A stretch of DNA of 64,000 nucleotides from NCBI GenBank assembly GCA_032622095.1, contig CP136063.1, positions 28,212,987-28,276,986 of the forward strand, written 5' to 3'. This DNA comes from Siphonodentalium dalli (lineage: Eukaryota > Mollusca > Scaphopoda > Gadilida > Siphonodentaliidae). A program made the position numbers and the translations under genes. The notes under the pieces are model-generated. The model searched no databases and was not told where the DNA came from. It saw only the letters and a list, made by a program, of their open reading frames with translations. Every line of letters starts with the position of its first letter. Positions within the stretch are counted from its first letter, which is position 1. Below, one piece after another: positions 9,889 through 52,669 of this stretch.

Positions 9889-10616
9889 ACGTTTTGGACA
9901 AGCTCAGAGCACCGCTTCTCCCTTCCCAATCATCAAAATCACCGCAAACGCCACTTCGGGGGTTAAGGCATCAACGATCTTTATATTGACCATATTCTGA
10001 TGTTTAAGGATTAACGCTCTTTATTGCAATGGACGTGGCTAAACTACTGACCACATGCATCCGAAATACGGATGCGCGACGAAATGCAATTATCTCGATT
10101 AAAAAGGCAGAATTGATCTAAGCATCATTTGTTTACAATTCAACGCAACACTATCGCTCGAAATATTCAGCAGAGAGATTTCACGACGGGATTAATTGAC
10201 TGTCCGCTCTTTTCGGGGAGACGGGTACCATGAATTAACTCATTGAAAAACAAACAATGCGTTGTCTGTCGTTCCTAGGAAGGGGGAATTTCATTGGGTC
10301 AATTCGGGGACTAATCTAGCAACGGGGATGTTTAGGACGGGTTCCATGAATTATCTCATTGAAAAACAAACAATGCGTTGACTGTCGTTCCCAGGAAGGG
10401 GGGATTTCATCGGGTCAATTTTTCCGCCAGAAAAAAAAAATTCATTTCAAAAATTAATTAAAACAATTTAAAATTTAAAAAAATTAAAAATAATTATTTA
10501 AATTTAAAAAAACATTAATATTACAAAATTCAAAAAAAATAAATAAATAAAAACAAAATAATTAAAAAAATGTCATGTTTCTGACCAACCACGCCAGTGG
10601 CGGGCTAACCTGCTAG
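9889..10616 (+). mobile_element. Helitron unit H1 (3' part only)
   Basis: Begins within the shared tail module (GGACAAGCTCAGAGCACCGC) and runs through an AT-rich segment to a terminal hairpin (CGCC-AGT-GGCG). It ends CTAG at 10,613-10,616, which is the Helitron 3' signature. The 5' end is missing, replaced by the dispersed repeat to its left. No Rep/helicase ORF is present, so it is non-autonomous. GAAAAACAAACAATGCGTTG occurs twice inside. Confidence 0.75.
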
Positions 10617-11539
10617 TCTCCTATATATTTTGAGACTTCCGTATATATGTATATATATATGTGTGTATATATATATATGTGGGTACTTTATAGAATCGAA
10701 AACGAATGGTCGGATCGAGGTCAAACTTCGTATATAATGGTAAAAACCCACGGGAATCGTCCACGTCGTATTTTGGACAAGCTCAGAGCACCGCTTCTCC
10801 CTTCCCAATCATCAAAATCACCGCAAACGACACTTCGGGGTTAATGCATCAACGATCTTCATATTGACCGTATTTGGAGTCGTTAACCGACAAACGCTCT
10901 TTATTGCCATTTTCAATCATACCTCTTTTAGGGACAGGTACTGCGTGTTGTGTGAAAAAAAAAATGTGTGTAGTGTGATTCTTATGTCTGTCGTTCCTAG
11001 GCACGGGGGAAATTTTCATCGGGTCACTTTTCCGCCGATGTACCTTAAATCATACCTATTTTAGGGACTGGTACTGCGTGTTTAGTTATTCTTATGTCTT
11101 CTTCACCGTAATCGGGTAAAATAAGGTCTAATCGGGTAAAATATTGAAAAATTAAATAAAAAAAATTAAAAAATCCAGTAAATTAAAAATGCACGGGTAA
11201 AATATTGAAAAACCAAAAATTAAATTAAAAAATTAATCAAACAAATTAATTCAAAAAGCCAGTAAATTAAATATTATTGAAAAAAAAATATTTAAAAATG
11301 TAATGTTTCTGAGTGTAATCGGGTAAAATATTGAAAAACAAAAAATTAAATTCTAAAATTAATCAAAAAAATTTATTAAAAAATCCAGTAAATTAAAAAT
11401 GCACAATTAACTCATGTTATAAAAAAAAAATTAATATTAACTATTAACTCATTGAAAACAAAAATTTAAAAATTAATTAAAAAAATATAAAATTGTCATG
11501 TTTCTGACGAACGCCGTTAGTGGCGGGCTAACCTGCTAG
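10617..11539 (+). mobile_element. Helitron unit H2 (short form without minisatellite)
   Basis: A 923-bp unit that begins TCTCCTATATATTTTG immediately after the CTAG of H1 and ends with a hairpin and CTAG at 11,536-11,539. It carries a (TA/TG)n run, the GAATCGAAAACGAATGGTC block, the tail module and an AT-rich 3' part. It has no 33-bp array, so the array is not an obligatory part of the family. ATCATACCTCTTTTAGGGAC and a near copy occur about 130 bp apart. No ORF of note. Confidence 0.8.
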
Positions 11540-13552
11540 TCTATTATATATTTTGGAAGATCTGTCTGTGTGTGTGTGTCTGTATGTCTGTAATCGATGG
11601 ACTCGAAAACGGCCGAGCCGATTTCGATGAAACTTGGTATGAGGGGGTATTTTCGGCCGGGGAGTGACATAGACCTATTAATTTGCCCGTGCGACGTGAC
11701 CTTGAAATATAGTTATGGGGTTTATGTTTCCTATATGGCACAGAGTTATGGGGTTTATGTTTCCTATGTCACACATAGTTATGGGGTTTATGTTTCCTAT
11801 ATGGCACAGAGTTATGGGGATTATGTTTCCTATGTCACACAGAGTTATGGGGTTTATGTTTCCTATGTCACACAGAGTTATGGGGTTTATGTTTCCTATG
11901 GCACACATAGTTATGGGGTTTATGTTTCCTATGGCACACATAGTTATGGGGTTTATGTTACCTATGGCACACAGAGTTATGGGGTTTATGTTTCCTATGG
12001 CACACATAGTTATGGGGTTTATGTTTCCTATGGCACACATAGTTATGGGGTTTATGTTACCTATGGCACACAGAGTAATGGGGTTTATGTTTCCTATGGC
12101 ACACAGAGAAATGGGGTTTATGTTTCATATGGCACACAGAGTTATGGGGTTTATGTTTCCTATGGCACACATAGTTATGGGGTTTATGTTTCCTATGGCA
12201 CACATAGTTATGGGGTTTATGTTTCCTATGGCACACAGAGTAATGGGGTTTATGTTTCCTATGGCATACAGAGTTATGGGGTTTATGTTTCCTATGGCAC
12301 ACATAGTTATGGGGTTTATGTTTCATATGGCACACATAGTTATGGGTTTATGTTTCCTATGGCACACAGAGTAATGGGGTTTATGTTTCCTATGGCACAC
12401 AGAGTTATGTGGTTTATGTTTCCTATGGCACACAGAGTTATGGGGTTTATGTTTCCTATGGCACACAGAGTTATGGGGTTTATGTTTTCTGTCACACAGA
12501 GTTATGGGGTTTATGTTTCCTATGGCACACATAGTTATGGGGTTTATGTTTCCTTTGGCACACATAGTTATGGGGTTTATGTTTCCTATGGCACACAGAG
12601 TAATGGGGTTTATGTTTCCCATGACACACAGAGTAATGGGGTTTATGTTTCCTATGGCACACAGAGTTATGGGGTTTATGTTTCCCATGACACACAGAGT
12701 AATGGGGTTTATGTTTCCTATGGCACACAGAGTAATGGGGTTTATGTTTCCTATGTCACACAGAGTAATGGGGTTTATGTTTCCCATGACACACAGAGTA
12801 ATGGGGTTTATGTTTCCTATGTCACACAGAGTAATGGGGTTTATGTTTCCTATGTCACACAGAGTTATGGGGTTTCTATGGCACACAAGGTTATGGTGTT
12901 TATGTTTCCTATATGTCACACAAAGTTGTGGGGTTTATGTTTCCTATGGCACACAAAGTTATGGGGTTTATGTTTCCTATGGCACACAGAGTAATGGGGT
13001 TTATGTTTCCTATGGCACACAGAGTAATGGGGTTTATGTTTCCTATGGCACACAGAGTAATGGGGTTTATGTTTCCTATGACACACAGAGTAATGGGGTT
13101 TATGTTTCATATGACACACAGAGTAATGGGGTTTATGTTTCATATGTCACACAGAGTTATGGGTTTTATGTTTCCTATGGCACACAGAGTAATGGGGTTT
13201 ATGTTTCCTATGGCACACAGAGTAATGGGGTTTATGTTTCATATGGCACACAGAGTAATGGGGTTTATGTTTCATATGACACACAGAGTAATGGGGTTTA
13301 TGTTTCCTATGTCACACAGAGTAATGGGGTTTATGTTTCATATGACACACAGAGTTATGGGGTTTATGTTTCATATGTCACACAGAGTAATGGGGTTTAT
13401 GTTTCATATGACACACAGAGTAATGGGGTTTATGTTTCCTATGTCACACAGAGTAATGGGGTTTATGTTTCCCATGACACACAGAGTAATGGGGTTTATG
13501 TTTCCTATGTCACACATAGTTATGGGGTTTATGTTTTCTGTCACACAGAGTT

Positions 13553-15962
13553 ATGGTGTTTATGTTTCCTATGGCACACAGAGTTATGGGGTTTCTATGG
13601 CACACAAGGTTATGGTGTTTATGTTTCCTATATGTCACACAAAGTTGTGGGGTTTATGTTTCCTATGGCACACAGAGATATGGGGTTTATGTTTCCTATG
13701 GCACACAGAGTTATGGGGTTTATGTTTCATATGGCACACATAGTTATGGGGTTTATGTTTCCTATGGCACACAGAGTAATGGGATTTATGTTTCCCATGA
13801 CACACAGAGTAATGGGGTTTATGTTTCCTATGTCACACATAGTTATGGGGTTTATGTATTCTGTCACACAGACTTATGGTGTTTATGTTTCCTATGGCAC
13901 ACAGAGTTATGGGGTTTCTATGGCACACAAGGTTATGGTGTTTATGTTTCCTATATGTCACACAAAGTTGTGGGGTTTATGTTTCCTATGGCACACAGAG
14001 TTATGGGGTTTATGTTTCCTATGGCACACATAGTTATGGGGTTTATGTTTCCTATGGCACACAGAGATATGGTGTTTATGTTTCCTATGGCACACATAGT
14101 TATGGTGTTTATGTTTCCTATGGCACACAGAGTTATGGGGTTTATGTTTTCTGTCACACAGAGTTATGGGGTTTATGTTTCCTATGGCACACATAGTTAT
14201 GGGGTTTATGTTTCCTATGGCACACATAGTTATGGGGTTTATGTTTCCTATGGCACACAGAGTAATGGGGTTTATGTTTCCCATGACACACAGAGTAATG
14301 GGGTTTATGTTTCCTATGGCACACAGAGTTATGGGGTTTATGTTTCCCATGACACACAGAGTAATGGGGTTTATGTTTCCTATGGCACACAGAGTAATGG
14401 GGTTTATGTTTCCTATGTCACACAGAGTAATGGGGTTTATGTTTCATATGGCACACAGAGTAATGGGGTTTATGTTTCATATGACACACAGAGTAATGGG
14501 GTTTATGTTTCCTATGTCACACAGAGTAATGGGGTTTATGTTTCATATGACACACAGAGTTATGGGGTTTATGTTTCATATGTCACACAGAGTAATGGGG
14601 TTTATGTTTCATATGACACACAGAGTAATGGGGTTTATGTTTCCTATGTCACACAGAGTAATGGGGTTTATGTTTCCCATGACACACAGAGTAATGGGGT
14701 TTATGTTTCCTATGTCACACATAGTTATGGGGTTTATGTTTTCTGTCACACAGAGTTATGGTGTTTATGTTTCCTATGGCACACAGAGTTATGGGGTTTC
14801 TATGGCACACAAGGTTATGGTGTTTATGTTTCCTATATGTCACACAAAGTTGTGGGGTTTATGTTTCCTATGGCACACAGAGATATGGGGTTTATGTTTC
14901 CTATGGCACACAGAGTTATGGGGTTTATGTTTCATATGGCACACATAGTTATGGGGTTTATGTTTCCTATGGCACACAGAGTAATGGGATTTATGTTTCC
15001 CATGACACACAGAGTAATGGGGTTTATGTTTCCTATGTCACACATAGTTATGGGGTTTATGTATTCTGTCACACAGACTTATGGTGTTTATGTTTCCTAT
15101 GGCACACAGAGTTATGGGGTTTCTATGGCACACAAGGTTATGGTGTTTATGTTTCCTATATGTCACACAAAGTTGTGGGGTTTATGTTTCCTATGGCACA
15201 CAGAGTTATGGGGTTTATGTTTCCTATGGCACACATAGTTATGGGGTTTATGTTTCCTATGGCACACAGAGATATGGTGTTTATGTTTCCTATGGCACAC
15301 ATAGTTATGGTGTTTATGTTTCCTATGGCACACAGAGTTATGGGGTTTATGTTTTCTGTCACACAGAGTTATGGGGTTTATGTTTCCTATGGCACACATA
15401 GTTATGGGGTTTATGTTTCCTATGGCACACATAGTTATGGGGTTTATGTTTCCTATGGCACACAGAGTAATGGGGTTTATGTTTCCCATGACACACAGAG
15501 TAATGGGGTTTATGTTTCCTATGGCACACAGAGTTATGGGGTTTATGTTTCCCATGACACACAGAGTAATGGGGTTTATGTTTCCTATGGCACACAGAGT
15601 AATGGGGTTTATGTTTCCTATGTCACACAGAGTAATGGGGTTTATGTTTCCCATGACACACAGAGTAATGGGGTTTATGTTTCCTATGTCACACAGAGTA
15701 ATGGGGTTTATGTTTCCTATGTCACACAGAGTTATGGGGTTTCTATGGCACACAAGGTTATGGTGTTTATGTTTCCTATATGTCACACAAAGTTGTGGGG
15801 TTTATGTTTCCTATGGCACACAGAGTAATGGGGTTTATGTTTCCTATGGCACACAGAGTAATGGGGTTTATGTTTCCTATGGCACACAGAGTAATGGGGT
15901 TTATGTTTCCTATGACACACAGAGTAATGGGGTTTATGTTTCATATGACACACAGAGTAATG
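13553..15962 (+). repeat. Higher-order repeat, period 1,205 bp (two copies)
   Basis: Diagnostic variant strings recur exactly 1,205 bp apart: landmarks at 13,553, 13,876, 13,951 and 14,154 reappear at 14,758, 15,081, 15,156 and 15,359, with identical translations over 68-106 codons. 1,205 is not a multiple of 33, so the copied segment includes off-length units. The outer limits are approximate. Confidence 0.75.
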
Positions 15963-16771
15963 GGGTTTATGTTTCATATGTCACACAGAGTTATGGGTTT
16001 TATGTTTCCTATGGCACACAGAGTAATGGGGTTTATGTTTCCTATGGCACACAGAGTAATGGGGTTTATGTTTCATATGGCACACAGAGTAATGGGGTTT
16101 ATGTTTCATATGACACACAGAGTAATGGGGTTTATGTTTCCTATGTCACACAGAGTAATGGGGTTTATGTTTCATATGACACACAGAGTAATGGGGTTTA
16201 TGTTTCATATGTCACACAGAGTTATGGGGTTTATGTTTCCTATGGCACAGAGTAATGGGGTTTATGTTTCATATGTCACACAGAGTAATGGGGTTTATGT
16301 TTCATATGACACACAGAGTAATGGGGTTTATGTTTCCTATGTCACACAGAGTAATGGGGTTTATGTTTCCCATGACACACAGAGTAATGGGGTTTATGTT
16401 TCCTATGTCACACATAGTTATGGGGTTTATGTTTTCTGTCACACATAGTTATGGTGTTTATGTTTCCTATGGCACACAGAGTTATGGGGTTTCTATGGCA
16501 CACAAGGTTATGGTGTTTATGTTTCCTATGGCACACATAGTTATGGGGTTTATGTTTCCTATGGCACACAGAGTTATGGGGTTTATGTTTCCTATGGCAC
16601 ACAGAGTTATGGGGTTTATGTTTCATATGGCACACATAGTTATGGGGTTTATGTTTCCTATGGCACACAGAGTAATGGGATTTATGTTTCCCATGACACA
16701 CAGAGTAATGAGGTTTATGTTTCCTATGTCACACATAGTTATGGGGTTTATGTTTTCTGTCACACAGACTT

Positions 16772-19700
16772 ATGGTGTTTATGTTTCCTATGGCACACAG
16801 AGTTATGGGGTTTCTATGGCACACAAGGTTATGGTGTTTATGTTTCCTATATGTCACACAAAGTTGTGGGGTTTATGTTTCCTATGGCACACAGAGTTAT
16901 GGGGTTTATGTTTCCTATGGCACACATAGTTATGGGGTTTATGTTTCCTATGGCACACAGAGATATGGTGTTTATGTTTCCTATGGCACACATAGTTATG
17001 GTGTTTATGTTTCCTATGACACACAGAGTTATGGTGTTTATGTTTCCTATGTCACACAGAGTTATGGGGTGTATGTTTCCTATGGCACACAGAGTTATGC
17101 GGTTTATGTTTCCTATGGCACACATAGTTATGGGGTTTATGTTTCCTATGGCACACATAGTTATGGGGTTTATGTTTCCTATGGCACACAGAGTAATGGG
17201 GTTTATGTTTCCTATGGCATACAGAGTTATGGGGTTTATGTTTTCTATGGCACACATAGTTATGGGGTTTATGTTTCATATAACACACATATTTATGGGG
17301 TTTATGTTTTCTGTCACACAGAGTTATGGGGTTTATGTTTCATATGGCACACATAGTTATGGGGTTTATGTTTCCTATGGCACACATATTTATGGGGTTT
17401 ATGTTTTCTGTCACACAGAGTAATGGGGTTTATGTTTCCTATGGCACACAGAGTTATGGGATTTATGTTTCCTATGGCACACAGAGTAATGGGGTTTATG
17501 TTTCCTATGGCACACATAGTAATGTGGTTTATGTTTCCTATGGCACACATAGTAATGTGGTTTATGTTTCCTATTGCACACAGAGTTATGGGGTTTATGT
17601 TTCCTATGGCACACAGAGTAATGGGGTTTATGTTTCCTATGGCACACATAGTAATGTGGTTTATGTTTCCTATTGCACACAGAGTTATGTGGTTTATGTT
17701 TCCTATGGCACACAGAGTAATGGGGTTTATGTTTCCTATGGCATACAGAGTTATGGGATTTATGTTTCATATAACACACAGAGTTATGGGGTTTATGTTC
17801 CATATGGCACACATAGTTATGGGGTTTATGTTTCCTATGGCACACAGAGTAATGGGGTTTATGTTTCCTATGGCATACAGAGTTATGGGGTTTATGTTTC
17901 ATATAACACACAGAGTTATGGGGTTTATGTTTCCTATGGCACACAGAGTAATGGGGTTTATGTTTCCTATGTCACACAGAGTAATGGGGTTTATGTTTCC
18001 TATGGCATACAGAGTTATGGGGTTTATGTTTTCTATGGCACACATAGTTATGGGGTTTATGTTTCCTATGGCACACAGAGTAATGGGGTTTATGTTTCCT
18101 ATGGCATACAGAGTTATGGGGTTTATGTTTTCTATGGCACACATAGTTATGGGGTTTATGTTTCATATAACACACAGAGTTATGGGGTTTATGTTTCCTA
18201 TGGCACACAGAGTAATGGGGTTTATGTTTCCTATGGCACACAGAGTAATGGGGTTTATGTTTCATATGGCACACAGAGTAATGGGGTTTATGTTTCATAT
18301 GACACACAGAGTAATGGGGTTTATGTTTCCTATGTCACACAGAGTAATGGGGTTTATGTTTCATATGACACACAGAGTAATGGGGTTTATGTTTCATATG
18401 TCACACAGAGTTATGGGGTTTATGTTTCCTATGGCACAGAGTAATGGGGTTTATGTTTCATATGTCACACAGAGTAATGGGGTTTATGTTTCATATGACA
18501 CACAGAGTAATGGGGTTTATGTTTCCTATGTCACACAGAGTAATGGGGTTTATGTTTCCCATGACACACAGAGTAATGGGGTTTATGTTTCCTATGTCAC
18601 ACATAGTTATGGGGTTTATGTTTTCTGTCACACAGAGTTATGGTGTTTATGTTTCCTATGGCACACAGAGTTATGGGGTTTCTATGGCACACAAGGTTAT
18701 GGTGTTTATGTTTCCTATATGTCACACAAAGTTGTGGGGTTTATGTTTCCTATGGCACACAGAGTTATGGGGTTTATGTTTCCTATGGCACACAGAGTTA
18801 TGGGGTTTATGTTTCATATGGCACACATAGTTATGGGGTTTATGTTTCCTATGGCACACAGAGTAATGGGATTTATGTTTCCCATGACACACAGAGTAAT
18901 GAGGTTTATGTTTCCTATGTCACACATAGTTATGGGGTTTATGTTTTCTGTCACACAGACTTATGGTGTTTATGTTTCCTATGGCACACAGAGTTATGGG
19001 GTTTCTATGGCACACAAGGTTATGGTGTTTATGTTTCCTATATGTCACACAAAGTTGTGGGGTTTATGTTTCCTATGGCACACAGAGTTATGGGGTTTAT
19101 GTTTCCTATGGCACACATAGTTATGGGGTTTATGTTTCCTATGGCACACAGAGATATGGTGTTTATGTTTCCTATGGCACACATAGTTATGGTGTTTATG
19201 TTTCCTATGACACACAGAGTTATGGTGTTTATGTTTCCTATGTCACACAGAGTTATGGGGTGTATGTTTCCTATGGCACACAGAGTTATGCGGTTTATGT
19301 TTCCTATGGCACACATAGTTATGGGGTTTATGTTTCCTATGGCACACATAGTTATGGGGTTTATGTTTCCTATGGCACACAGAGTAATGGGGTTTATGTT
19401 TCCTATGGCATACAGAGTTATGGGGTTTATGTTTTCTATGGCACACATAGTTATGGGGTTTATGTTTCATATAACACACATATTTATGGGGTTTATGTTT
19501 TCTGTCACACAGAGTTATGGGGTTTATGTTTCATATGGCACACATAGTTATGGGGTTTATGTTTCCTATGGCACACATATTTATGGGGTTTATGTTTTCT
19601 GTCACACAGAGTAATGGGGTTTATGTTTCCTATGGCACACAGAGTTATGGGATTTATGTTTCCTATGGCACACAGAGTAATGGGGTTTATGTTTCCTATG

Positions 19701-20100
19701 GCACACATAGTAATGTGGTTTATGTTTCCTATGGCACACATAGTAATGTGGTTTATGTTTCCTATTGCACACAGAGTTATGGGGTTTATGTTTCCTATGG
19801 CACACAGAGTAATGGGGTTTATGTTTCCTATGGCACACATAGTAATGTGGTTTATGTTTCCTATTGCACACAGAGTTATGTGGTTTATGTTTCCTATGGC
19901 ACACAGAGTAATGGGGTTTATGTTTCCTATGGCATACAGAGTTATGGGATTTATGTTTCATATAACACACAGAGTTATGGGGTTTATGTTCCATATGGCA
20001 CACATAGTTATGGGGTTTATGTTTCCTATGGCACACAGAGTAATGGGGTTTATGTTTCCTATGGCATACAGAGTTATGGGGTTTATGTTTCATATAACAC
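16772..20100 (+). repeat. Higher-order repeat, period 2,191 bp (two copies)
   Basis: Landmarks at 16,772, 16,847, 17,052, 17,314 and 17,326 recur at 18,963, 19,038, 19,243, 19,505 and 19,517, all offset 2,191 bp, with identical translations over up to 194 codons. The limits are approximate. Confidence 0.75.
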
Positions 20101-23100
20101 ACAGAGTAATGGGATTTATGTTTCCTATGTCACACAGAGTTATGGGGTTTATGTTTCCTATGGCACACATAGTTATGGGGTTTATGTTTCCTATGGCACA
20201 CAGAGTAATGGGGTTTATGTTTCCTATGGCATACAGAGTTATGGGGTTTATGTTTTCTATGGCACACATAGTTATGGGGTTTATGTTTCATATAACACAC
20301 AGAGTTATGGGGTTTATGTTTCCTATGGCACACAGAGTAATGGGGTTTATGTTTCCTATGGCACACAGAGTAATGGGGTTTATGTTTCCTATGGCATACA
20401 GAGTTATGGGGTTTATGTTTTCTATGGCACACATAGTTATGGGGTTTATGTTTCATATAACACACAGAGTTATGGGGTTTATGTTTCCTATGGCACACAG
20501 AGTAATGGGGTTTATGTTTCCCATGACACACAGAGTTATGGGGTTTATGTTTCCTATGGCACACAGAGTAATGGGGTTTATGTTTCCTATGGCACACAGA
20601 GTTATGTGGTTTATGTTTCCTATGGCACACATAGTAATGGGGTTTATGTTTCCTATGGCACACATAGTTATGGGGTTTATGTTTGCTATGGCACACAGAG
20701 TAATGGGGTTTATGTTTCCTATGGCACACAGAGTTATGTGGTTTATGTTTCCTATGGCACACATAGTTATGGGGTTTATGTTTCCTATGGCACACAGAGT
20801 AATGGGGTTTATGTTTCCTATGGCACACAGAGTTATGTGGTTTATGTTTCCTATGGCACACATAGTAATGTGGTTTATGTTTCCTATTGCACACAGAGTT
20901 ATGGGGTTTATGTTTCCTATGGCACACAGAGTAATGGGGTTTATGTTTCCTATGGCATACAGAGTTATGGGGTTTATGTTTCATATAACACACAGAGTTA
21001 TGGGGTTTATGTTCCATATGGCACACATAGTTATGGGGTTTATGTTTCCTATGGCACACAGAGTAATGGGGTTTATGTTTCCTATGACATACAGAGTTAT
21101 GGGGTTTATGTTTCATATAACACACAGAGTAATGGGGTTTATGTTTCCTATGTCACACAGAGTTATGGGGTTTATGTTTCCTATGGCACACATAGTTATG
21201 GGGTTTATGTTTCCTATGGCACACAGAGTAATGGGGTTTATGTTTCCTATGGCATACAGAGTTATGGGGTTTATGTTTTCTATGGCACACATAGTTATGG
21301 GGTTTATGTTTCATATAACACACAGAGTTATGGGGTTTATGTTTCCTATGGCACACAGAGTAATGGGGTTTATGTTTCCTATGGCACACAGAGTAATGGG
21401 GTTTATGTTTCCTATGGCATACAGAGTTATGGGGTTTATGTTTTCTATGGCACACATAGTTATGGGGTTTATGTTTCATATAACACACAGAGTTATGGGG
21501 TTTATGTTTCCTATGGCACACAGAGTAATGGGGTTTATGTTTCCCATGACACACAGAGTTATGGGGTTTATGTTTCCTATGGCACACAGAGTAATGGGGT
21601 TTATGTTTCCTATGGCACACATAGTAATGGGGTTTATGTTTCCTATGGCACACATAGTTATGGGGTTTATGTTTCCTATGGCACACAGAGTAATGGGGTT
21701 TATGTTTCCTATGGCACACAGAGTTATGTGGTTTATGTTTCCTATGGCACACATAGTTATGGGGTTTATGTTTCCTATGGCACACAGAGTAATGGGGTTT
21801 ATGTGTCCTATGGCACACAGAGTTATGTGGTTTATGTTTCCAATGGCACACAGAGTAATGGGGTTTATGTTTCCTATGGCACAGAGTAATGGGGTTTATG
21901 TTTCCTATGTCACACAGAGTAATGGGGTTAATGTTTCCTATAACACACAGAGTTATGGGGTTTATGTTTCCTATGGCACACAGAGTTATGGGGTTTATGT
22001 TTCCTATGGCACACAAAGTAATGGGGTTAATGTTTCCTATGTCACACAGAGTAATGGGGTTTATGTTTCCTATGGCACACAGAGTTATGGTGTTTATGTT
22101 TCCTATGGCACACAGAGTTATGGTGTTTATGTTTCCTATGGCACACATAGTTATGGGGTTTATGTTACCTATGGCACACAGAGTTATGGGATTTATGTTT
22201 CCTATGGCACACATAGTTATGGGGTTTATGTTTCCTATGGCACACATAGTTATGGGGTTTATGTTACCTATGGCACACAGAGTAATGGGGTTTATGTTTC
22301 CTATGGCACACAGAGTAATGGGGTTTATGTTTCATATGGCACACAGAGTTATGGGGTTTATGTTTCCTATGGCACACATAGTTATGGGGTTTATGTTTCC
22401 TATGGCACACATAGTTATGGGGTTTATGTTTCCTATGGCACACAGAGTAATGGGGTTTATGTTTCCTATGGCATACAGAGTTATGGGGTTTATGTTTCCT
22501 ATGGCACACATAGTTATGGGGTTTATGTTTCATATGGCACACATAGTTATGGGTTTATGTTTCCTATGGCACACAGAGTAATGGGGTTTATGTTTCCTAT
22601 GGCACACAGAGTTATGTGGTTTATGTTTCCTATGGCACACAGAGTTATGGGGTTTATGTTTCCTATGGCACACAGAGTTATGGGGTTTATGTTTTCTGTC
22701 ACACATAGTTATGGGGTTTATGTTTCCTATGGCACACATAGTTATGGGGTTTATGTTTCCTATGGCACACATAGTTATGGGGTTTATGTTTCCTATGGCA
22801 CACAGAGTAATGGGGTTTATGTTTCCCATGACACACAGAGTAATGGGGTTTATGTTTCCTATGTCACACAGAGTTATGGGGTTTATGTTTCCTATGGCAC
22901 ACAGAGTTATGGGGTTTATGTTTCCTATGGCACACAGAGTTATGGGGTTTATGTTTTCTGTCACACATAGTTATGGGGTTTATGTTTCCTATGGCACACA
23001 TAGTTATGGGGTTTATGTTTCCTATGGCACACATAGTTATGGGGTTTATGTTTCCTATGGCACACAGAGTAATGGGGTTTATGTTTCCCATGACACACAG

Positions 23101-28146: not shown

Positions 28147-29549
28147 AGTAATGGGGTTTATGTTTCCTATGGCACAGAGTAATGGGGTTTATGTTTCCTA
28201 TGGCACACATAGTAATGGGGTTTATGTTTCCCATGTCACACAGAGTTATGGGGTTTATGTTTCCTATAACACACAGAGTTATGGGGTTTATGTTTCCTAT
28301 GGCACACAGAGTTATGGGGTTTATGTTTCCTATGGCACACAGAGTTATGGGGTTTATGTTTCCTATAACACACAGAGTTATGGGGTTTATGTTTCCTATA
28401 ACACACAGAGTAATGGGGTTTATGTTTCCTATGGCACACATAGTTATGGGGTTTATGTTTCCTATGTCACACAGAGTAATGGGGTTTATGTTTCCTATGG
28501 CACAGAGTAATGGGGTTTATGTTTCCCATGGCACACAGAGTAATGGGGTTTATGTTTCCTATGGCACACAGAGTAATGGGGTTTATGTTTCATATGACAC
28601 ACAGAGTAATGGGGTTTATGTTTCCTATTACACACATAGTTATGGTGTTTCTGTTTCCTATGGCACACAGAGTAATGGGGTTTATGTTTCCCATGACACA
28701 CATAGTAATGGGGTTTATGTTTCCCATGGCACACATAGTAATGGGGTTTATGTTTCCTATGGCACACAGAGTAATGGGGTTTATGTTTCCTATGGCACAC
28801 AGAGTAATGGGGTTTATGTTTCCAATGGCACACAGAGTAATGGGGTTTATGTTTCCCATGGCACACAGAGTAATGGGGTTTATGTTTCCTATGTCACACA
28901 TAGTTTCCTATGGCACACAGAGTAATGGGGTGTATGTTTCCTATGGCACACAGAGTAATGGGGTTTATGTTTCCTATGTCACACAGAGTAATGGGGTTTA
29001 TGTTTCCTATAACACACATAGTTATGGAGTTTATGTTTCCTATGTCACACAAAGTTATGGGGTTTATGTTTTCTGTCACACAGAGTTATGGTGTTTATGT
29101 TTCCTCAAGCTCAGAGCACCGCTTCTCCCTTCCCAATCGTCAAAATCACCACAAACGACACTTCGGGGGTTAAGGCATCAACGATCTTTATATTAAATTA
29201 AAAAATTAATTCTAAAATTAATTCAAAAATCCAGTAAATTAAAAATGCACAATTAACTCATGTTATAAACAAAAAATTAATATTAACTATTAACTCATTG
29301 AATACAAAAATTTAAAAATTAATTAAAAAAATTTAAAATTGTCATGTTTCTGACGAACGCCGCCAGTGGCGGGCTAACCTGCTAGACTATTATATATTTT
29401 GGAAGATCTGTCTGTGTGTGTGTGTGTCTGTAATTGATGGACTCGAAAACGGCCGAGCCGATTTCGATGAAACTTGGTATGTGGGGTATTTTCGGCCGGG
29501 GGGTGGCATAAACCTATTAATTTGCCCGTGCGACGTGACCTTGAAATAT

Positions 29550-31668
29550 AGTTATGGGGTTTATGTTTCCTATATGGCACAGAGTTATGGGGTTTATGTT
29601 TCCTATGGCACACATAGTAATGGGGTTTATGTTTCCTATGACACACAGAGTAATGGGGGTTATGTTTCCTATGTCACACAGAGTAATGGGGTTTATGTTT
29701 CCTATGTCACACAGAGTAATGGGGTTTATGTTTCCTATGGCACACAGAGTTATGATGTTTATGTTTCCAATGGCACACAGAGTAATGGGGTTAATGTTTC
29801 CTATGTCACACAGAGTAATGGGGTTAATGTTTCCTATGGCACAGAGAGTAATGGGGTTTATGTTTCCTATGGCACACAGAGTAATGGGGTTTCTATGGCA
29901 CACAGAGTAATGGGGTTTATGTTTCCTATGGCACACAGAGTTATGGGGTTTATGTTACCTATGGCACACAGAGTTATGGGGTTTATGTTTCCTATGGCAC
30001 ACAGAGTAATGGGGTTTATGTTTCCTATGTCACACAGAGTTATGGGGTTTATGTTACCTATGGCACACATAGTAATGGGGTGTATGTTTCCTATGGCACA
30101 CAGAGTAATGGGGTTTATGTTTCCTATGACACACAGAGTAATGGGGTTAATGTTTCCTATGGCACACAGAATTATGGGGTTTATGTTTCCTGTGGCACAC
30201 AGAGTAATGGGGTTTATGTTTCCTATGACACAGAGAGTAATGGGGTTAATGTTTCCTATGGCACACAGAATTATGGGGTTTATGTTTCCTATGGCACACA
30301 GAGTAATGGGGTTTATGTTTCCTATGGCACACAGAGTAATGGGGTGTATGTTTCCTATGTCACACAGAGTTATGGGGTTTATGTTACCTATGGCACACAG
30401 AGTAATGGGGTGTATGTTTCCTATGTCACACTGAGTTATGGGGTTTATGTTTCCTATGGCACACAGAGTAATGGGGTTTATGTTTCCTATGGCACACAGA
30501 GTAATGGGGTTTATGTTTCCTATGGCACACAGAGTTATGGGGTTTATGTTTCCTATGTCACACAGAGTTATGGGGTTAATGTTTCCTATGGCACACAGAA
30601 TTATGGGGTTTATGTTTCCTATGGCACACAGAGTAATGGGGTGTATGTTTCCTATGGCACACAGAGTAATGGGGTTTATGTTTCCTATGTCACACAGAGT
30701 AATGGGGTTAATGTTTCCTATGTCACACATAGTTATGGTGTTTATGTTTCCTATAACACACATAGTTATGGGGTTTATGTTTCCTATGCCACACAGAGTA
30801 ATGGGGTTTATGTTTCCTATGTCACACATAGTTATGGGGTTTATGTTTCCTATGGCACACAGAGTAATGGGGTTTATGTTTCCTATGGCACACAGAGTAA
30901 TGGGGTTTATGTTTCCTATGGCACACAGAGTAATGGAGTTTATGTTTCCTATGGCACACAGAGTAATGGGGTGTATGTTTCCTATGGCACACATAGTTAT
31001 GGTGTTTCTGTTTCCTATGGGACACAGATTAATGGTGTTTATGTTTCCCATGACACACAGAGTAATGGGGTTTATGTTTCCTATGGAACACAGAGTAATG
31101 GGGTTTATGTTTCATATGACACACAGAGTAATGGGGTTTATGTTTCCTATGTCACACAGAGTAATGGGGTTTATGTTTCCTATGGCACACAGAGTAATGG
31201 GGTTTATGTTTCCTATGGCACAGAGTAATGGGGTTTGTTTCCTATGGAACACATAGTAATGGGGTTTATGTTTCCTATGGCACAGAGTAATGGGGTTTAT
31301 GTTTCCTATGTCACACATAGTTATGGGGTTTATGTTTCCTATGTCACACATAGTTATGGGGTTTATGTTTCCTATGGCACACAGAGTAATGGTGTTTATG
31401 TTTCCCATGACACACAGAGTAATGGGGTTTATGTTTCCTATGGCACACAGAATAATGGGGTTTATGTTTCATATGACACACAGTGTAATGGGGTTTATGT
31501 TTCCTATGTCACACAAAGTTATGGGGTTTATGTTTCCTATGGCACACAGAGTTATGGGGTTTATGTTTCCTATGGCACACAAGGTTATGGTGTTTATGTT
31601 TCCTATGTCACACAAAGTTATGGGGTTTATTTTTTCTGTCACACAGAGTTATGGTGTTTATGTTTCCT
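29550..31668 (+). repeat. 33-bp minisatellite block in H4 (first, ~64 units by length)
   Basis: Same unit as the main array, entered after the same TTGAAATATAG leader and left at the same ...TGTTTCCT / CAAGCTCAGAG junction. It is richer in AGTAATGG and GTTAATG variants than the main block. Confidence 0.95.
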
Positions 31669-31896
31669 CAAGCTCAGAGCACCGCTTCTCCCTTCCCAAT
31701 CATCAAAATCACCGCAAACGACACTTCGGGGGTTAAGGCATCAACGATCTTTATATTGACCGTATTTGGAGTCGTTAACCGACAAACGCTCTTTATTGCC
31801 ATCGACGTTGCTAAACGGTTAACCACGCGTACGAAACTACGGACGCAAAACGCGAAATGCATTTATCTCGATTAAAAAGGCAGAATTATAGAATCG
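31669..31896 (+). repeat. Helitron tail segment interrupting the H4 array
   Basis: From CAAGCTCAGAGCACCGC to GGCAGAATTATAGAATCGA, then straight back into the 33-bp unit. The same segment occurs at 34,123-34,347, where it instead continues into GAAAACGAATGGTC. The jump therefore occurs at GAATCGA, a short sequence adjoining the array unit. Confidence 0.85.
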
Positions 31897-34122
31897 AGTT
31901 ATGGGGTTTATGTTTCCTATGGCACACAGAGTAATGGGGTTTATGTTTCCTATGTCACACATAGTTATGGGGTTTATGTTACCTATGGCACATATAGTAA
32001 TGGGGTGTATGTTTCCTATGGCACACAGAGTAATGGGGTTTATGTTTCCTATGACACACAGAGTAATGGGGTTTATGTTTCCTATGGCATACAGAGTTAT
32101 GGGGTTTATGTTTCCTATGGCACACATAGTAATGGGGTTTATGTTTCCTATGGCATACAGAGTTATGGGGTTTATGTTTCCTATGTCACAGAGTAATGGG
32201 GTTTATGTTTCCTATGGAACACATAGTAATGGGGTTTATGTTTCCTATGTCACACATAGTTATGGGGTTTATGTTTCCTATGGCACACATAGTAATGGGG
32301 TTTATGTTTCCTATGTCACACATAGTTATGGGGTTTATGTTTCCTATGGCACACATAGTAATGGGGTTTAAGTTTCCTATGGCATACAGAGTTATGGGGT
32401 TTATGTTTCCTATGTCACACAGAGTTATGGGGTTTATGTTTCCTATGACACACAGAGAAATGGGGTTTATGTTTCCTATGACACATAGTAATGGGGTTTA
32501 TGTTTCCTATGGCACACAGAGTAATGGGGTTTATGTTTCCTATGACACAGAGTAATGGGGTTTATGTTTCCTATGGAACACATAGTAATGGGGTTTATGT
32601 TTCCTATGGCACACAGAGTAATGGGGTTTATGTTTCCTATGACACAGAGTAATGGGGTTTATGTTTCCTATGTCACACAGAGTTATGGGGTTTATGTTTC
32701 ATATGACACACAGAGTTATGTGGTTTATGTTTCCTATGTCACACAGAGTTATGTGGTTTATGTTTCCTATGGCACACAGAGTAATGGGGTTTATGTTTCC
32801 TATGTCACACAGAGTAATGGGGTTTATGTTTCCTATGGCACAGACTAATGGGGTTTATGTTTCCTATGGAACACATAGTAATGGGGTTTATGTTTCCTAT
32901 GGCACAGAGTAATGGGGTTTATGTTTCCTATGGCACACAGAGTTATGTGGTTTATGTTTCCTATGGCACACATAGTTATGGGGTTTATGTTTCCTATGTC
33001 ACACAGAGTTATGGGGTTTATGTTTCCTATGGCACAGAGTAATGGGGTTTATGTTTCCTATGGAACACATAGTAATGGGGTTTATGTTTCCTATGTCACA
33101 CATAGTTATGGGGTTTATGTTTCCTATGGCACACATAGTAATGGGGTTTATGTTTCCTATGTCACACAGAGTTATGGGGTTTATGTTTCCTATGACACAC
33201 AGTGTAATGGGATTTATGTTTCCTATGGAACACATAGTAATGGGGTTTATGTTTCCTATGGCACACATAGTTATGGGGTTTATGTTTCCTATGACACACA
33301 TAGTTATGGGGTTTATGTTTCCTATGTCACACAGAGTTATGGGGTTTATGTTTCCTATGGCACACAGAGTAATGGGGTTTATGTTTCCTATGGCACACAT
33401 AGTAATGGGGTTTATGTTTCCTATGGCACACAGAGTAATGGGGTTTATGTTTCCTATGGCACACAGAGTAATGGGGTTTATGTTTCCTATGTCACACATA
33501 GTTATGGGGTTTATGTTTCCTATGGCACAGAGTAATGGGGTTTATGTTTCCTATGGCACACAGAGTAATGGGGTTTATGTTTCCTATGGCACAGAGTAAT
33601 GGGGTTTATGTTTCCTATGGAACACATAGTAATGGGGTTTATGTTTCCTATGTTACACATAGTTATGGGGTTTATGTTTCCTATGGCACACAGAGTAATG
33701 GGGTTTATGTTTCCCATGACACACAGAGTAATGGGGTTTATGTTTCCTATGGCACACAGAGTAATGGGGTTTATGTTTCATATGACACAGAGTAATGGGG
33801 TTTATGTTTCCTATGTCACACAAAGTTATGGGGTTTATGTTTTCTGTCACACAGAGTTATGGTGTTTATGTTTCCTATGGCACACAGAGTTATGGGGTTT
33901 CTATGGCACACAAGGTTATGGTGTTTATGTTTCCTATGTCACACAAAGTTATGGTGTTTATGTTTTCTGTCACACAGAGTTATGGTGTTTATGTTTCCTA
34001 TGGCACACAGAGTTATGGGGTTTCTATGGCACACAAGGTTATGGTGTTTATGTTTCCTATGTCACACAAGGTTATGGTGTTTATGTTTTCTGTCACACAG
34101 AGTTATGGTGTTTATGTTTCCA
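31897..34122 (+). repeat. 33-bp minisatellite block in H4 (second, ~67 units by length)
   Basis: Same unit, with frequent short units ending GGCACAGAG or GACACAGAG that shift phase. It ends in two copies of the diagnostic block containing TTCTGTCACACAGAG and CACACAAGGTTATGG before the tail. Confidence 0.95.
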
Positions 34123-35128
34123 CAAGCTCAGAGCACCGCTTCTCCCTTCCCAATCATCAAAATCACCGCAAACGACACTTCGGGGGTTAAGGCATCAACG
34201 ATCTTTATATTGACCGTATTTGGAGTCGTTAACCGACAAACGCTCTTTATTGCCATCCACGTTGCTAAACGGTTAACCATGCGTACGAAACTACGGACGC
34301 AAAAGGCGAAATGCATTTATCTCGATTAAAAAGGCAGAATTATAGAATCGAAAACGAATGGTCGGATCGAGCTCAAGATTCGTATATAAGGGTAAAAACC
34401 CACGGAGATCGTCCACGTCGTATTTTGGACAAGCTCAGAGCACCGCTTCTCCCTTCATAATCATCAAAATCACCGCAAACGACACTTCGGGGGTTAATGC
34501 ATCAACGATCTTCATATTGACCGTATTTGGAGTCGTTAACCGACAAACGCTCTTTATTGCCATTTTCAATCATACCTCTTTTAGGGACGGGTACTGCGTG
34601 TTGTGTGAAAACAAAAAATGTGTGTTGTGTTATTCTTATGTCTGTCGTTCCTAGGCACAGGGGGAAATTTTCATCGGGTCACTTTTCCGCCGATGTACCT
34701 TAAATCATACCTCTTTTAGGGACGGGTACTGCGTGTTTAGTTATTCTTATGTCTTCTTCACCGTAATCGGGTAAAATAAGGTATAATCGGGTAAAATATT
34801 GAAAAATTAAATTAAAAAATCCAGTAAATTAAAAATGCACGGGTAAAATATTGAAAAACCAAAAATTTAATTAAAAAATTAATCAAAAAAATTAATTCAA
34901 AAAGCCAGTAAATTAAATATTATTGAAAAAAAAAATTAAATTCAAAAATTAATTCTAAAATTAATTCAAAAATCCAGTAAATTAAAAATGCACAATTAAC
35001 TCATGTTATAAACAAAAAATTAATATTAACTATTAACTCATTGAATACAAAAATTTAAAAATTAATTAAAAAAATTTAAAATTGTCATGTTTCTGACGAA
35101 CGCCGCCAGTGGCGGGCTAACCTGCTAG

Positions 35129-38100
35129 TCTATTATATATTTTGGAAGATCTGTCTGTGTGTGTGTGTGTCTGTAATTGATGGACTCGAAAACGGCCGAG
35201 CCGATTTCGATGAAACTTGGTATGTGGGGGTATTTTCGGCCGGGGGGTGGCATAAACCTATTAATTTGCCCGTGCGACGTGACCTTGAAATATAGTTATG
35301 GGGTTTATGTTTCCTATGGCAAACAGAGTAATGGGGTTTATGTTTCCTATGTCACACAGAGTAATGGGGTTTATGTTTCCTATGTCACACAGAATAATGG
35401 GGTTTATGTTTCCTATGGCACACAGAGTTATGGTGTTTATGTTTCCTATGGCACACAGAGTAATGGGGTTTATGTTTCCTATGTCACACAGAGTTATGTG
35501 GTTTATGTTTCCTATGGCACACAGAGTTATGGGGTTTATGTTTCCTATGTCACACAGAGTAATGGGGTTTATGTTTCCTATAACACACAGAGTAATGGTG
35601 TTTATGTTTCCTATGTCACACATAGTTATGGGGTTTATGTTTCCTATGGCAGAGTAATGGGGTTAATGTTTCCTATGGCACACAGAGTAATGGGTTTATG
35701 TTTCCTATGTCACACAGAGTAATGGGGTTTATGTTTCCTATGGCACACATAGTAATGGGGTTTATGTTTCCTATGTCACACAGAGTTATGGGGTTTATGT
35801 TTCCTATGGCACACAGAGTAATGGGGTTTATGTTTCCTATGGCACAGAGTAATGGGGTTTATGTTTCCTATGCCACACATAGTTATGGGGTTTATGTTTC
35901 CTATGGCACACATAGTAATGGGGTTTATGTTTCCTATGGCACACAGAGTAATGGGGTTTATGTTTCCTATGGCACACATAGTAATGGGGTTTATGTTTCC
36001 TATGGCACACAGAGTTATGGGGTTTATGTTTCATATGGCACAGAGTAATGGGGTTTATGTTTCCTATGGCACACAGAGTTATGGGGTTTATGTTTCCTAT
36101 AACACACAGAGTAATGGGGTTTATGTTTCCTATGCCACACATAGTTATGGGGTTTATGTTTCCTATGGCACACATAGTAATGGGGTTTATGTTTCCTATG
36201 GCACACAGAGTAATGGGGTTTATGTTTCATATGGCACAGAGTAATGGGGTTTATGTTTACTATGCCACACAGAGTTATGGGGTTTATGTTTCCTATAACA
36301 CACAGAGTTATGGGGTTTATGTTTCCTATGGCATACAGAGTTATGTGGTTTATGTTTCCTATGGCACACAGAGTAACGGGGTTTATGTTTCCTATGGCAT
36401 ACAGAGTTATGTGGTTTATGTTTCCTATGGCACACAGAGTAACGGGGTTTATGTTTCCTATGTCACACAGAGTTATGTGGTTTATGTTTCCTATGGCACA
36501 CAGAGTAATGTGGTTTATGTTTCCTATGGCACACAGAGTAATGGTGTTTATGTTTCCTATGGCACACAGAGTTATGGGGTTTATGTTTCCTATGGCACAC
36601 AGAATTATGGGGTTTATGTTTCCTATGTCACACAGAGTAATGGGGTTTATGTTTCCTATGGCAGAGTAATGGGGTTAATGTTTCCTATGTCACAGAGTAA
36701 TGGGGTTTATGTTTCCTATGGCACACATAGTAATGGGGTTTATGTTTCCTATGGCACACAGAGTAATGGGGTTTATGTTTCCTATGGCACAGAGTAATGG
36801 GGTTTATGTTTCCTATGTCACAGAGTAATGGGGTTTATGTTTCCTATGGCACAGAGTAATGGGGTTTATGTTTCCTATGTCACACAGAGTTATGGGGTTT
36901 ATGTTTCCTATAACACACAGAGTTATGGGGTTTATGTTTCCTATGTCACACAGAGTAATGGGGTTTATGTTTCCTATAACACACAGAGTTATGGGGTTTA
37001 TGTTTCCTATGTCACACATAGTTATGGGGTTTATGTTTCCTATAACACAGAGTTATGGGGTTTATGTTTCCTATGTCACACAGAGTAATGGGGTTTATGT
37101 TTCCTATGTCACACAGAGTAATGGGGTTTATGTTTCCTATGTCACACAGAGTAATGGGGTTTATGTTTCCTATGGCACACAGAGTAATGGGGTTTATGTT
37201 TCCTATGTCACACAGAGTAATGGGGTTTATGTTTCCTATGGCACACATAGTAATGGGGTTTATGTTTCCTATGTCACACAGAGTTATGGGGTTTATGTTT
37301 CCTATGGCACACAGAGTAATGGGGTTTATGTTTCCTATGGCACAGAGTAATGGGGTTTATGTTTCCTATGCCACACATAGTTATGGGGTTTATGTTTCCT
37401 ATGGCACACATAGTAATGGGGTTTATGTTTCCTATGGCACAGAGTAATGGGGTTTATGTTTCCTATGTCACACAGAGTTATGGGGTTTATGTTTCCTATG
37501 TCACACAGAGTTATGGGGTTTATGTTTTCTGTCACACAGAGTAATGGGGTTTATGTTTCCTATGCCACACATAGTTATGGGGTTTATGTTTTCTGTCCAC
37601 AGAGTTATGGGGTTTATGTTTCCTATAACACACAGAGTTATGGGGTTTATGTTTTCTGTCACACAGAGTAATGGGGTTTATGTTTCCTATGCCACACATA
37701 GTTATGGGGTTTATGTTTCCTATGGCACACAGAGTAATGGGGTTTATGTTTCCTATGCCACACATAGTAATGGGGTTTATGTTTCCTATGGCACACAGAG
37801 TAATGGGGTTTATGTTTCATATGGCACAGAGTAATGGGGTTTATGTTTCCTATGTCACACAGAGTTATGGGGTTTATGTTTCCTATAACACACAGAGTTA
37901 TGGGGTTTATGTTTCCTATGGCACACAGAGTAATGGGGTTTATGTTTCCTATGGCATACAGAGTTATGTGGTTTATGTTTCCTATGGCACACAGAGTAAC
38001 GGGGTTTATGTTTCCTATGTGACACAGAGTTATGTGGTTTATGTTTCCTATGGCACACAGAGTAATGTGGTTTATGTTTCCTATGTCACACAGAGTAATG

Positions 38101-39359
38101 GTGTTTATGTTTCCTATGGCACACAGAGTTATGGGGTTTATGTTTCCTATGGCACACAGAATTATGGGGTTTATGTTTCCTATGTCACACAGAGTAATGG
38201 GCTTTATGTTTCCTATGGCAGAGTAATGGGGTTAATGTTTCCTATGGCACACAGAGTAATGTGGTTTATGTTTCCTATAACACACAGAGTAATGGGGTTT
38301 ATGTTTCCTATGTCACACAGAGTAATGGGGTTTATGTTTCCTATGGCACAGAGTAATGGGGTTTATGTTTCCTATGTCACAAAGAGTTATGGGGTTTATG
38401 TTTCCTATGTCACACATAGTTATGGGGTTTATGTTTCCTATAACACACAGAGTTATGGGGTTTATGTTTCCTATGTCACACAGAGTAATGGGGTTTATGT
38501 TTCCTATGACACACAGAGTAATGGGGTTTATGTTTCCTATGTCACACAGAGTTATGGTGTTTATGTTTCCTATGTCACACATAGTTATGGTGTTTATGTT
38601 TCCTATGTCACACATAGTTATGGGGTTTATGTTTCCTATGTCACACTGAGTAATGGGGTTTGTTTCCTATGTCACACAGAGTAATAGGGTTTATGTTTCC
38701 TATGTCACACATAGTTATGGTGTTTATGTTTCCTATGTCACACATAGTTATGGGGTTTATGTTTCCTATGTCACACTGAGTAATGGGGTTTATGTTTCCT
38801 ATGTCACACATAGTTATGGGGTTTATGTTTCATATGGCACAGAGAGTAATGGGGTTTATGTTTCCTATGTCACACAGAGTAATGGGGTTTATGTTTCCTA
38901 TGTCACACTGAGTAATGGGGTTTATGTTTCCTATGTCACACAGAGTAATGGGGTTTATGTTTCCTATGGCACACATAGTAATGGGGTTTATGTTTCCTAT
39001 GGCACACAGAGTAATGGGGTTTATGTTTCCTATGGCACAGAGTAATGGGGTTTATGTTTCCTATGTCACACATAGTTATGGGGTTTATGTTTCCTATGTC
39101 ACACAGAGTAATGGGGTTTATGTTTCCTATGGCACAGAGTAATGGGATTTATGTTTCCTATGTCACACATAGTTATGGGGTTTATGTTTCCTATGGCACA
39201 CATAGTTATGGGGTTTATGTTTCCTATGTCACACATAGTTATGGGGTTTATGTTTCCTATGGCACACATAGTAATGGGGTTTATGTTTCCTATGGCACAC
39301 AGAGTAATGGGGTTTATGTTTCCTATGGCACACAGAGTAATGGGGTTTATGTTTCATAT
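35129..39359 (+). mobile_element. Helitron unit H5, 3'-truncated, with minisatellite
   Basis: The 5' end TCTATTATATATTTTGG follows the CTAG of H4, then the family leader, then the 33-bp array from 35,294 to 39,359. No tail module, terminal hairpin or CTAG follows. The array stops in TTTCATATC and joins the 50-bp repeat at the edge of the zinc-finger duplication, so the 3' end was lost or replaced. Confidence 0.75.
35294..39359 (+). repeat. 33-bp minisatellite block in H5 (~123 units by length)
   Basis: Same unit with many TATGTC, TATAAC and TATGCC variants and several short units (GGCAGAGTAATGG, TTTCTGTCCACAG). It lacks the shared right-hand junction that ends the other three blocks. Confidence 0.95.
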
Positions 39360-39519: not shown

Positions 39520-40500
<981 letters not shown>

Positions 40501-40659
40501 TAGCTTTTGGCAAGAGGGGCTGTTTCAAAACAGTTTGTCTTTGATATTCATGACAGAACCATTTTGTAAGTCCCAATACTCCTTGAATTTCCGGTATTTT
40601 AATATAGTTTTTTGAGTTGCGAACATATTTGGAATGTTTCATGATTGTTGGGAAAATGA

Positions 40660-40970: not shown

Positions 40971-41079
40971 GTTATTTCCCATGAGCTTTGACCAAACTCT
41001 ATGTGCGGAATCCACTGCACACTGTATATAATTTGAGCAAGTGCCTTCCAGTCTTAAAGTCCATAGTGCAAAGATAATT

Positions 41080-41589: not shown

Positions 41590-42695
<1,106 letters not shown>

Positions 42696-42814
42696 TCATG
42701 ACAGAACCATTTTGTAAGTCCCAATACTCCTTGAATTTCCGGTATTTTAATATTGTTTTTTGAGTTGAGAACATATTTGGAATGTTTCATGATTGTTGGG
42801 AAAATGACCTCCTG

Positions 42815-44044: not shown

Positions 44045-44343
<299 letters not shown>

Positions 44344-45786: not shown

Positions 45787-46386
45787 CTAGCTGGCGGACC
45801 AGACTTCGTCCGGGCTGTTTCCCCTCTGCGTTTCGGCGAATTGCGAGATTTGACCTTGAATTGTCCATTTTGAAGGTCAAGGTCAGGTGAGTTCACGATT
45901 TGACCCTTCCAATACACTGCCCGGACAAAAGTACCCCACAAAAGTACCCGTCGAAATCCATCCTGTTTTACTCGATTTTACCTTGAATTGACCATTTGAA
46001 GGTCAAGGTCAGGTCGGGGTCACGATTTGACCCGTCCAAAACACTCATTGGACAAAAGTAACCCTATGTATCAAATTTCGTCGAAATCCCATCAAAATTC
46101 GCGATTTGACCTTGAATTTACCGGATTTCAAGGTCAAGGTCACATCGCACGGGCAAATGAATAGGCTTATGACACTCCCCATACGAATGTATCCCTAGAC
46201 ACTAATTTTCATCGAAATCCCGTGATATTTGGGCGTTTGACCTTGAAAGGATCCGATTTCAAATTAATAGGCCTATGCCACTCCCGGCCGAAAGTACCCC
46301 CAAATACCAAGTTTAATCGAAATCGGTTGAACCGTTTTCGAGTCCATCGCGAACAGACAGACAGATTTCCCAAAATATATAATAGA
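45787..46386 (-). mobile_element. Complete 600-bp non-autonomous Helitron
   Basis: Read on the minus strand it begins TCTATTATATATTTTGGG at 46,386. It shares the leader of the big concatemer (CTCGAAAACGGTTCAACCG, TTTCGGCCGGGAG, GCCCGTGCGATGTGACC) and contains about four ~90-bp modules built on TTGACCTTGAA / CAAGGTCAAGGTCA. It ends with a hairpin (CGGAC...GTCCG) followed by CCAG and CTAG at 45,787. It sits between host A and T with no target-site duplication. The flanks ATAAATA and TAGAATATCTG are joined directly at 57,970/57,971, a paralogous empty site. No ORF, so it would be mobilised in trans by a Rep/helicase encoded elsewhere. Confidence 0.88.
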
Positions 46387-52639: not shown

Positions 52640-52669
52640 AATATTATTTATAGTTTCGACCAATTCACG

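Follow-up and report, generated by a model that had tools for sequence, protein, structure and literature searches.

Helitrons in the genome of Siphonodentalium dalli are joined end to end, and this joining is exact, mostly oriented, repeated, and not restricted to members of one family. We propose that the resulting arrays have two layers, namely an oriented, Rep-made joining to a resident Helitron terminus and a subsequent local duplication of blocks, a reading to which we assign a probability of roughly 0.5. In the accessible text of PMC2267711, the choice between rolling-circle multimers and consecutive insertion is argued from single pairs. The genome studied here, with its thousands of joints formed by several families and its intact autonomous copies, allows these models to be weighed by counts of offset, orientation, and partner.

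A chain of joined Helitrons in the window

The window, a stretch of 64,000 nucleotides (C3:28212987-28276986) from a 2.227-Gb genome in nine contigs, was previously described by a sequence-only reading as containing a concatemer of five Helitron units with four exact CTAG/TC joints and a 9-nt spacer between hairpin and CTAG. The chain is real (Table 1), the spacer length is correct, and all four joints were confirmed, each consisting of a hairpin, nine bases, and CTAG, followed by a 5' end with zero bases between. However, only three of the four joints continue with TC, since the one at 29385/86 reads CTAG/AC, and the outer units are incomplete, with unit 1 lacking a 5' end and unit 5 lacking a 3' end; both termini are present only in units 2, 3, and 4.

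Table 1. Helitron units, joints, and the 33-bp minisatellite in the window, together with a solitary Helitron copy (window coordinates).
Feature	Position	Strand	Description
Unit 1	9889..10616	+	Family II Helitron, 5'-truncated, alpha 3' end (hairpin, GCTAACCTG, CTAG)
Unit 2	10617..11539	+	Family II, non-autonomous, complete, 923 bp
Unit 3	11540..29385	+	Chimera: family I start, minisatellite, family II end
Unit 4	29386..35128	+	Chimera built like unit 3; first base A, not T
Unit 5	35129..39359	+	Family I 5' end and minisatellite; runs into unrelated 50-bp repeats
Joint 1	10613..10618	+	CTAG/TC at 10616/17, family II 3' end to family II 5' end
Joint 2	11536..11541	+	CTAG/TC at 11539/40, family II 3' end to family I 5' end
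Joint 3	29382..29387	+	CTAG/AC at 29385/86
Joint 4	35125..35130	+	CTAG/TC at 35128/29
33-bp minisatellite	11711..39359	+	843.7 copies, broken by joints
Solitary family I Helitron	45787..46386	-	600 bp, flanks A/TC ... CTAG/T

Units 1 and 2 belong to family II, and units 3 to 5 start as family I. Unit 1 ends with an exact 3' motif (10593-10616) and has a body matching that of unit 2; no TC start is visible at 9889. Unit 2, with the 5' end TCTCCTATATATTTTGAGACTTCCG and an alpha 3' end with 2 mismatches, was scored as a complete II-alpha unit. Unit 3 is composed of a family I 5' end (11540-11710), the 33-bp minisatellite (11711 to about 29089), and a family II body with an alpha 3' end (about 29090-29385). 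Unit 4 harbors a remnant of family II body inside its minisatellite (about 31666-31898) and a family II end longer than that of unit 3 (about 34122-35128); it is, as by its parts is unit 3, a rare I-alpha chimera. For unit 5, no 3' end was found within the window stretch 35129-39359.

The earlier description of very large units overlooked what their size consists of: units 3 to 5 are large because the minisatellite fills almost all of 11711-39359. The repeat shows the short head-to-tail monomers and higher-order duplications of the minisatellite/satellite class, the latter at kilobase to multi-kilobase scale in the interior of unit 3, and an ungapped scan revealed copies of up to 1,468 bp at ≥98%. 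Of the 677 minisatellite matches in the whole genome, 676 lie in the window (the odd one was not placed), and the repeat was most likely born at this locus. Furthermore, the identical breakpoint between minisatellite and family II body occurs three times (about 29089, 31665, and 34122), and about 307 bp spanning joint 3 recur around joint 4 at ≥98%; the two are duplicates of a single joint. The aligned 5' ends of units 4 and 5 agree in 170 of 172 columns, and those of units 3 and 4 in 158 of 171. Elsewhere, the best of 39 scored candidates, out of 2,655 from a search with family I start and minisatellite, shares 97% with unit 4 over 161 bp; the scored set did not include unit 3 itself.

Units 3 to 5 are most simply, and best, explained by local amplification of one chimera, because the minisatellite is confined to the locus and joints 3 and 4 are copies. 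By themselves, units 3 to 5 would pass as repeats of the same element, as expected of a read-through concatemer, and the insertion of a rolling-circle multimer already carrying the minisatellite is a possible alternative; no source copy for such a multimer was found.

The solitary family I Helitron provides an in-window control for canonical AT insertion. Besides the Helitrons, the window contains 84-bp tandem repeats whose minus-strand translation is C2H2 zinc-finger-like (39541-45393, 54633-54969, and 58532-59833), in arrays with several partial copies and, between some of them, 50-bp repeats, as well as a 102-bp tandem repeat with six copies (47225-47841). Reverse transcriptase-like and endonuclease-like open frames on the minus strand (48807-52810) may represent a non-LTR retrotransposon.

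Families, partners, and exactness of the joints

Three Helitron families were distinguished by their ends: family I starts with TCTATTATATATTTTGG and carries the gamma 3' end, family II starts with TCTATACTATATATTTTGAG and carries the alpha 3' end, and family III starts with TCTCATATATATTTTGAAG and carries the beta 3' end. By eye, all three 3' ends show CTAG after inverted GC-rich arms, in line with the CTRR/hairpin structure of canonical (Helitron1-type) Helitrons. The pairing of 5' and 3' ends is strict in the 156 complete units from the fetched loci and the window (I-gamma in 45 of 49, II-alpha in 56 of 60, and III-beta in 47 of 47), and these units account for 156 of the 221 sampled 5' ends, which thus open a unit with both ends.

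The genome contains at least 151 Rep matches; of those listed, no fewer than 17 lie in open frames of 1,600-1,700 aa. Intact autonomous copies with Rep and PIF1 helicase were found in family III; none were identified for families I and II. One family III copy of ~8.7 kb sits inside an array at C1:13.7 Mb and encodes a Rep-PIF1 protein of 1,613 aa with matches to PF14214 (Helitron Rep, E 9.3e-56) and PF05970 (PIF1, E 5.3e-68), while an endonuclease domain is absent among the 6 Pfam hits of this one protein. It also contains GLPHSH and YVCKY, which we take to be the Rep motifs (HUH, two tyrosines). The right joint of this copy is exact; on its left, an 11-base stub starting with TC lies between CTAG and TCTCAT. 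Moreover, two autonomous family III copies abut exactly (starting at C2:141790964 and 141799535, within C2:141790964-141808110), with lengths of 8,571 and 8,576 bp, and an open frame of 1,650 aa each; their first 4,066 bp, the part that was compared, differ by 2 mismatches. The first copy directly adjoins another beta 3' end, and a T follows the second. This pair has possibly been active recently; it may have arisen by read-through or by a recent duplication, and it is the best candidate for a rolling-circle dimer. For a second autonomous pair (C1:114.63 Mb), no known end motif was present in the 5.2 kb examined. Rep matches of a second, more distant group (E about 1e-23), with open frames of more than 2,500 aa, e.g., at C8:4875782 and C4:255311255, perhaps represent another Helitron-like lineage.

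A 31-nt joint pattern (≤3 mismatches) matches 10,342 times in the 2.227 Gb, and the same pattern read backward, used as control, matches 0 times. The joints therefore occur far beyond chance, which supports the head-to-tail joining of Helitron ends noted by the sequence-only reading and refutes its assumption that such series are rare; other joined arrays, a check which that reading had suggested, are widespread, e.g., at C1:13.7 Mb and C1:63.52-63.53 Mb. The latter (C1:63517958-63534498) is a regular homotypic array of six gamma/I joints, the last five being spaced 3.04 to 3.10 kb. The alpha 3' end (22 nt, 1 mismatch) and the family I 5' end (26 nt, 1 mismatch) have 14,327 and 14,227 matches in the genome, respectively, numbers that are not strictly comparable with each other or with that of the joint pattern, owing to the unlike pattern lengths and mismatch limits.

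For single-end samples, 20 of 100 listed alpha 3' ends and 20 of 100 listed family I 5' ends were inspected by eye, mostly every other entry, with clusters that had been fetched whole being skipped. Among the alpha 3' ends, 8 run straight into a TC 5' end, 4 meet a 5' end at another offset (L005, L010, L018, and L021), and 8 are solitary, two of which (L003 and L020) have an identical flank; the next base is T in 20 of 20. Among the family I 5' ends, 10 lie directly after a CTAG 3' end and 1 after a CTTA variant, while 9 are solitary, 8 of them preceded by A. Thus, about half of the sampled ends lie in joints.

The partners in these joints frequently belong to different families. Whole-genome searches with 36-nt patterns (≤2 mismatches) for exact joints ahead of family I starts revealed 4,312 gamma, 3,196 beta, and 861 alpha ends, a total of about 8,369, in which a small overlap of counts is possible as the three patterns differ by only 3 or 4 bases. 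A foreign, i.e., heterotypic, left partner was accordingly found in 4,057 of the 8,369. Within the fetched loci, 174 joints comprise 98 homotypic and 76 heterotypic ones, and 97 pairs of adjacent complete units comprise 50 homotypic and 47 heterotypic ones, although these mixing counts are partly ascertained by the selection of loci L001, L002, and L052-L063 on the alpha/I joint.

The joints are also exact and oriented. For the alpha end, the only one for which offsets were counted, 861 joints lie precisely at the family I boundary, 8 at an AT two bases upstream, and 0 four bases inside. Among the 219 3' ends in the fetched loci, 174 have a 5' end of the same direction within 34 bp, and 0 have an inverted 3' end within that distance. 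Only one head-to-head pair, an inexact one (L034), occurs among 221 5' ends. An exact head-to-head joint was found 0 times genome-wide in a search restricted to family I and run without a positive control; it should be noted that head-to-head counts may be low, as long palindromes are unstable and hard to assemble. A T follows 213 of the 219 3' ends, which, together with the A ahead of 8 of 9 solitary 5' ends and the flanks of the solitary copy in the window, conforms to insertion between A and T. The first bases of the 174 sampled joints are TC in 140 and TA in 31. The TA joints, chiefly CTAG/TAC ahead of family II starts, are in some arrays preceded by TCTA stubs, and some TC joints carry extra TCTA-like stubs as well, e.g., to the left of the autonomous copy.

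To assess whether the joints arose independently, the divergence of left and right sides was correlated across loci. Mantel r was 0.16 for alpha/I, 0.12 for beta/I, and 0.27 for gamma/I joints (P 0.117, 0.219, and 0.080), based on small samples of 15, 12, and 9 joints, respectively, and pairs diverging by less than 3% on both sides occurred in this cross-locus set only inside a single locus, either L062 or L075. In the C1:13.7-Mb array, by contrast, the beta/I joints gave r 0.54 (0 of 5,000 permutations), with 17 of 91 pairs below 3% on both sides. We read this as joints having formed many times at separate loci, with arrays then growing by block duplication.

Origin of the arrays

The two-layer reading would account for these observations as follows. 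In the first layer, three families would join each other's termini genome-wide, exactly and in a single orientation. The HUH transposase (Rep) would nick a resident terminus at its usual start or stop site (N/TC or CTAG/T), and the incoming DNA, a single strand or a circle that has been cut at its CTAG/TC, would enter the nick by strand exchange. The expected product is ...A/TC-new-CTAG/TC-resident..., and either resident end may serve. In the second layer, local tandem duplication would multiply unit blocks within an array. Applied to the window, joints 1 and 2 would be first-layer joining, and units 3 to 5 would derive from a single, locally amplified chimera that combines a family I start with a minisatellite born at the locus and a family II end. 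Candidate enzyme sources are the Rep-coding copies, including the family III autonomous copy inside an array. The more specific proposal that other Helitrons, irrespective of family, land at Helitron termini in an oriented and sequence-specific manner, through a Rep nick and strand exchange, is put forward tentatively, at slightly less than even odds. It suggests a reaction that can be tested, with resident Helitron ends as its targets, and, if true, would explain the gain of long mixed Helitron blocks in which satellites then arise, as in the window.

The sequence-only reading had attributed the chain to rolling-circle read-through, in which the 3' terminator is passed, a second round follows, and the element is inserted as a head-to-tail multimer. 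This predicts exact, oriented CTAG/TC joints, and it fits the near-identical autonomous dimer on C2 as well as the regular array at C1:63.52-63.53 Mb, with its spacing near 3.08 kb. Homotypic neighbors are, moreover, in excess: 50 of 91 pairs compared to a shuffled mean of 27.3 (sd 4.3), a value reached in 0 of 5,000 shuffles, with the window and 6 central pairs chosen on the alpha/I joint omitted. Part of this excess comes from block duplicates, and either rolling circles or duplication thus make a real share of the joints. Among 48 homotypic neighbor pairs compared (2 long ones were skipped), 20 consist of units more similar to one another than to the best unit elsewhere, and in one array, two 1,068-bp units are 99.8% identical; however, the other 28 are no closer mutually than to the best unit at another locus. 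Read-through is, furthermore, unable to join different families, as would be required for nearly half of the tested joints and for window units 1 to 3. That the whole 29 kb is one rolling-circle concatemer was therefore rejected. Some true rolling-circle concatemers are likely among the genome's joints, with the homotypic excess and the C2 dimer as the evidence for them, while units 3 to 5 fit local amplification better, and as the general source of the arrays we consider read-through unlikely. The homotypic excess and the off-boundary joints weigh against the two-layer reading, as does a test of growth direction by the age of units, which showed no polarity along arrays, the upstream unit being younger in 41 and the downstream unit in 35 of 76 pairs (P 0.57).

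Less probable still is untargeted insertion at AT, one of the models in Du et al. 2008 (PMC2267711, as far as its accessible text goes). Here, the resident boundary A/TC rebuilds the AT target each time, and arrays arise by independent insertions. This would yield exact joints, mixed families, and the T after 3' ends, and CTAG/TAC with an upstream TCTA stub (e.g., L058, positions 58 and 2450) can be read as an element inserted into the start of a resident, at the next AT. Yet the alpha end uses neighboring ATs at least 100-fold less than the boundary itself. By eye, 5 of 9 solitary family I starts offer the upstream AT, so a simple AT preference should have yielded hundreds of joints there instead of 8. 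In addition, AT is palindromic, and orientation-blind insertion should give head-to-head as often as head-to-tail joints, i.e., half of them, whereas the family I search returned 0 exact joints and the fetched loci a single inexact head-to-head pair. Orientation-blind AT insertion as the sole cause was rejected on these offset and orientation counts.

It is very improbable that the arrays were built solely by local tandem duplication or unequal exchange. Duplication is clear in parts, as in the beta/I joints of the C1:13.7-Mb array, the repeated joints in L075 and L062, and window units 3 to 5, but it explains neither how a first joint came about nor why like joints at separate loci have independent sides; we retain it as the second layer and reject it as the sole cause. 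Homologous recombination of a double-stranded, CTAG/TC-joined Helitron circle into a resident copy would yield exact joints of the same direction, and Helraiser circles are reported in the accessible part of PMC4778049, but its need for homology means that the heterotypic half of the joints is not easily produced, and we regard it as the least credible account.

Tandem Helitrons in other genomes

Tandem Helitrons are already known, and it is the scale and the mixing of families that are new here. In a literature search with limited coverage of subscription journals, no mixed-family Helitron arrays at such scale were recognized. As far as the consulted portions of these sources go, PMC5876387 cites plant and bat tandem arrays in support of rolling circles, PMC5148889 discusses tandem copies in fungi, and PMC12628747 reviews centromeric plant arrays as well as TE dimers formed by target preference.

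The closest precedent is a single pair from maize, described in the accessible text of Du et al. 2008 (PMC2267711), in which two different Helitrons are joined CTAG/TC with a G/T joint, and for which consecutive-insertion and rolling-circle models were both weighed. The maize pair shares this joint of two different Helitrons with S. dalli, where, however, the joints number in the thousands, involve at least three families, and come with offset and orientation counts that bear on the models. Perfect head-to-tail Helitrons of the bat Myotis, which were read as tandem repeats (Pritham and Feschotte 2007, as summarized in PMC2267711), have head-to-tail joints alike, whereas about half of the joints tested here are between families. 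Plant centromeric Helitrons (Xiong et al. 2016, as summarized in PMC12628747) form rolling-circle amplified arrays of truncated copies, many with several 5' ends and one 3' end; they are alike as arrays, but in S. dalli most sampled 5' ends (156 of 221) open two-ended units. According to the accessible parts of PMC4778049 and PMC5876387, the joint of Helraiser circles is exactly CTAG/TC, although these are circles of one element and not a chromosomal array of several families. Helitron and Helentron elements with internal tandem repeats, reviewed in the part of PMC12628747 available to us, likewise carry tandem repeats inside a Helitron frame, while the 33-bp minisatellite is confined to one locus and not spread by the element. 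If our reading of the joints is true, arrays of unrelated Helitrons would grow by a site-specific reaction made by the transposase, and they would represent a eukaryotic counterpart of self-targeting HUH insertion sequences.
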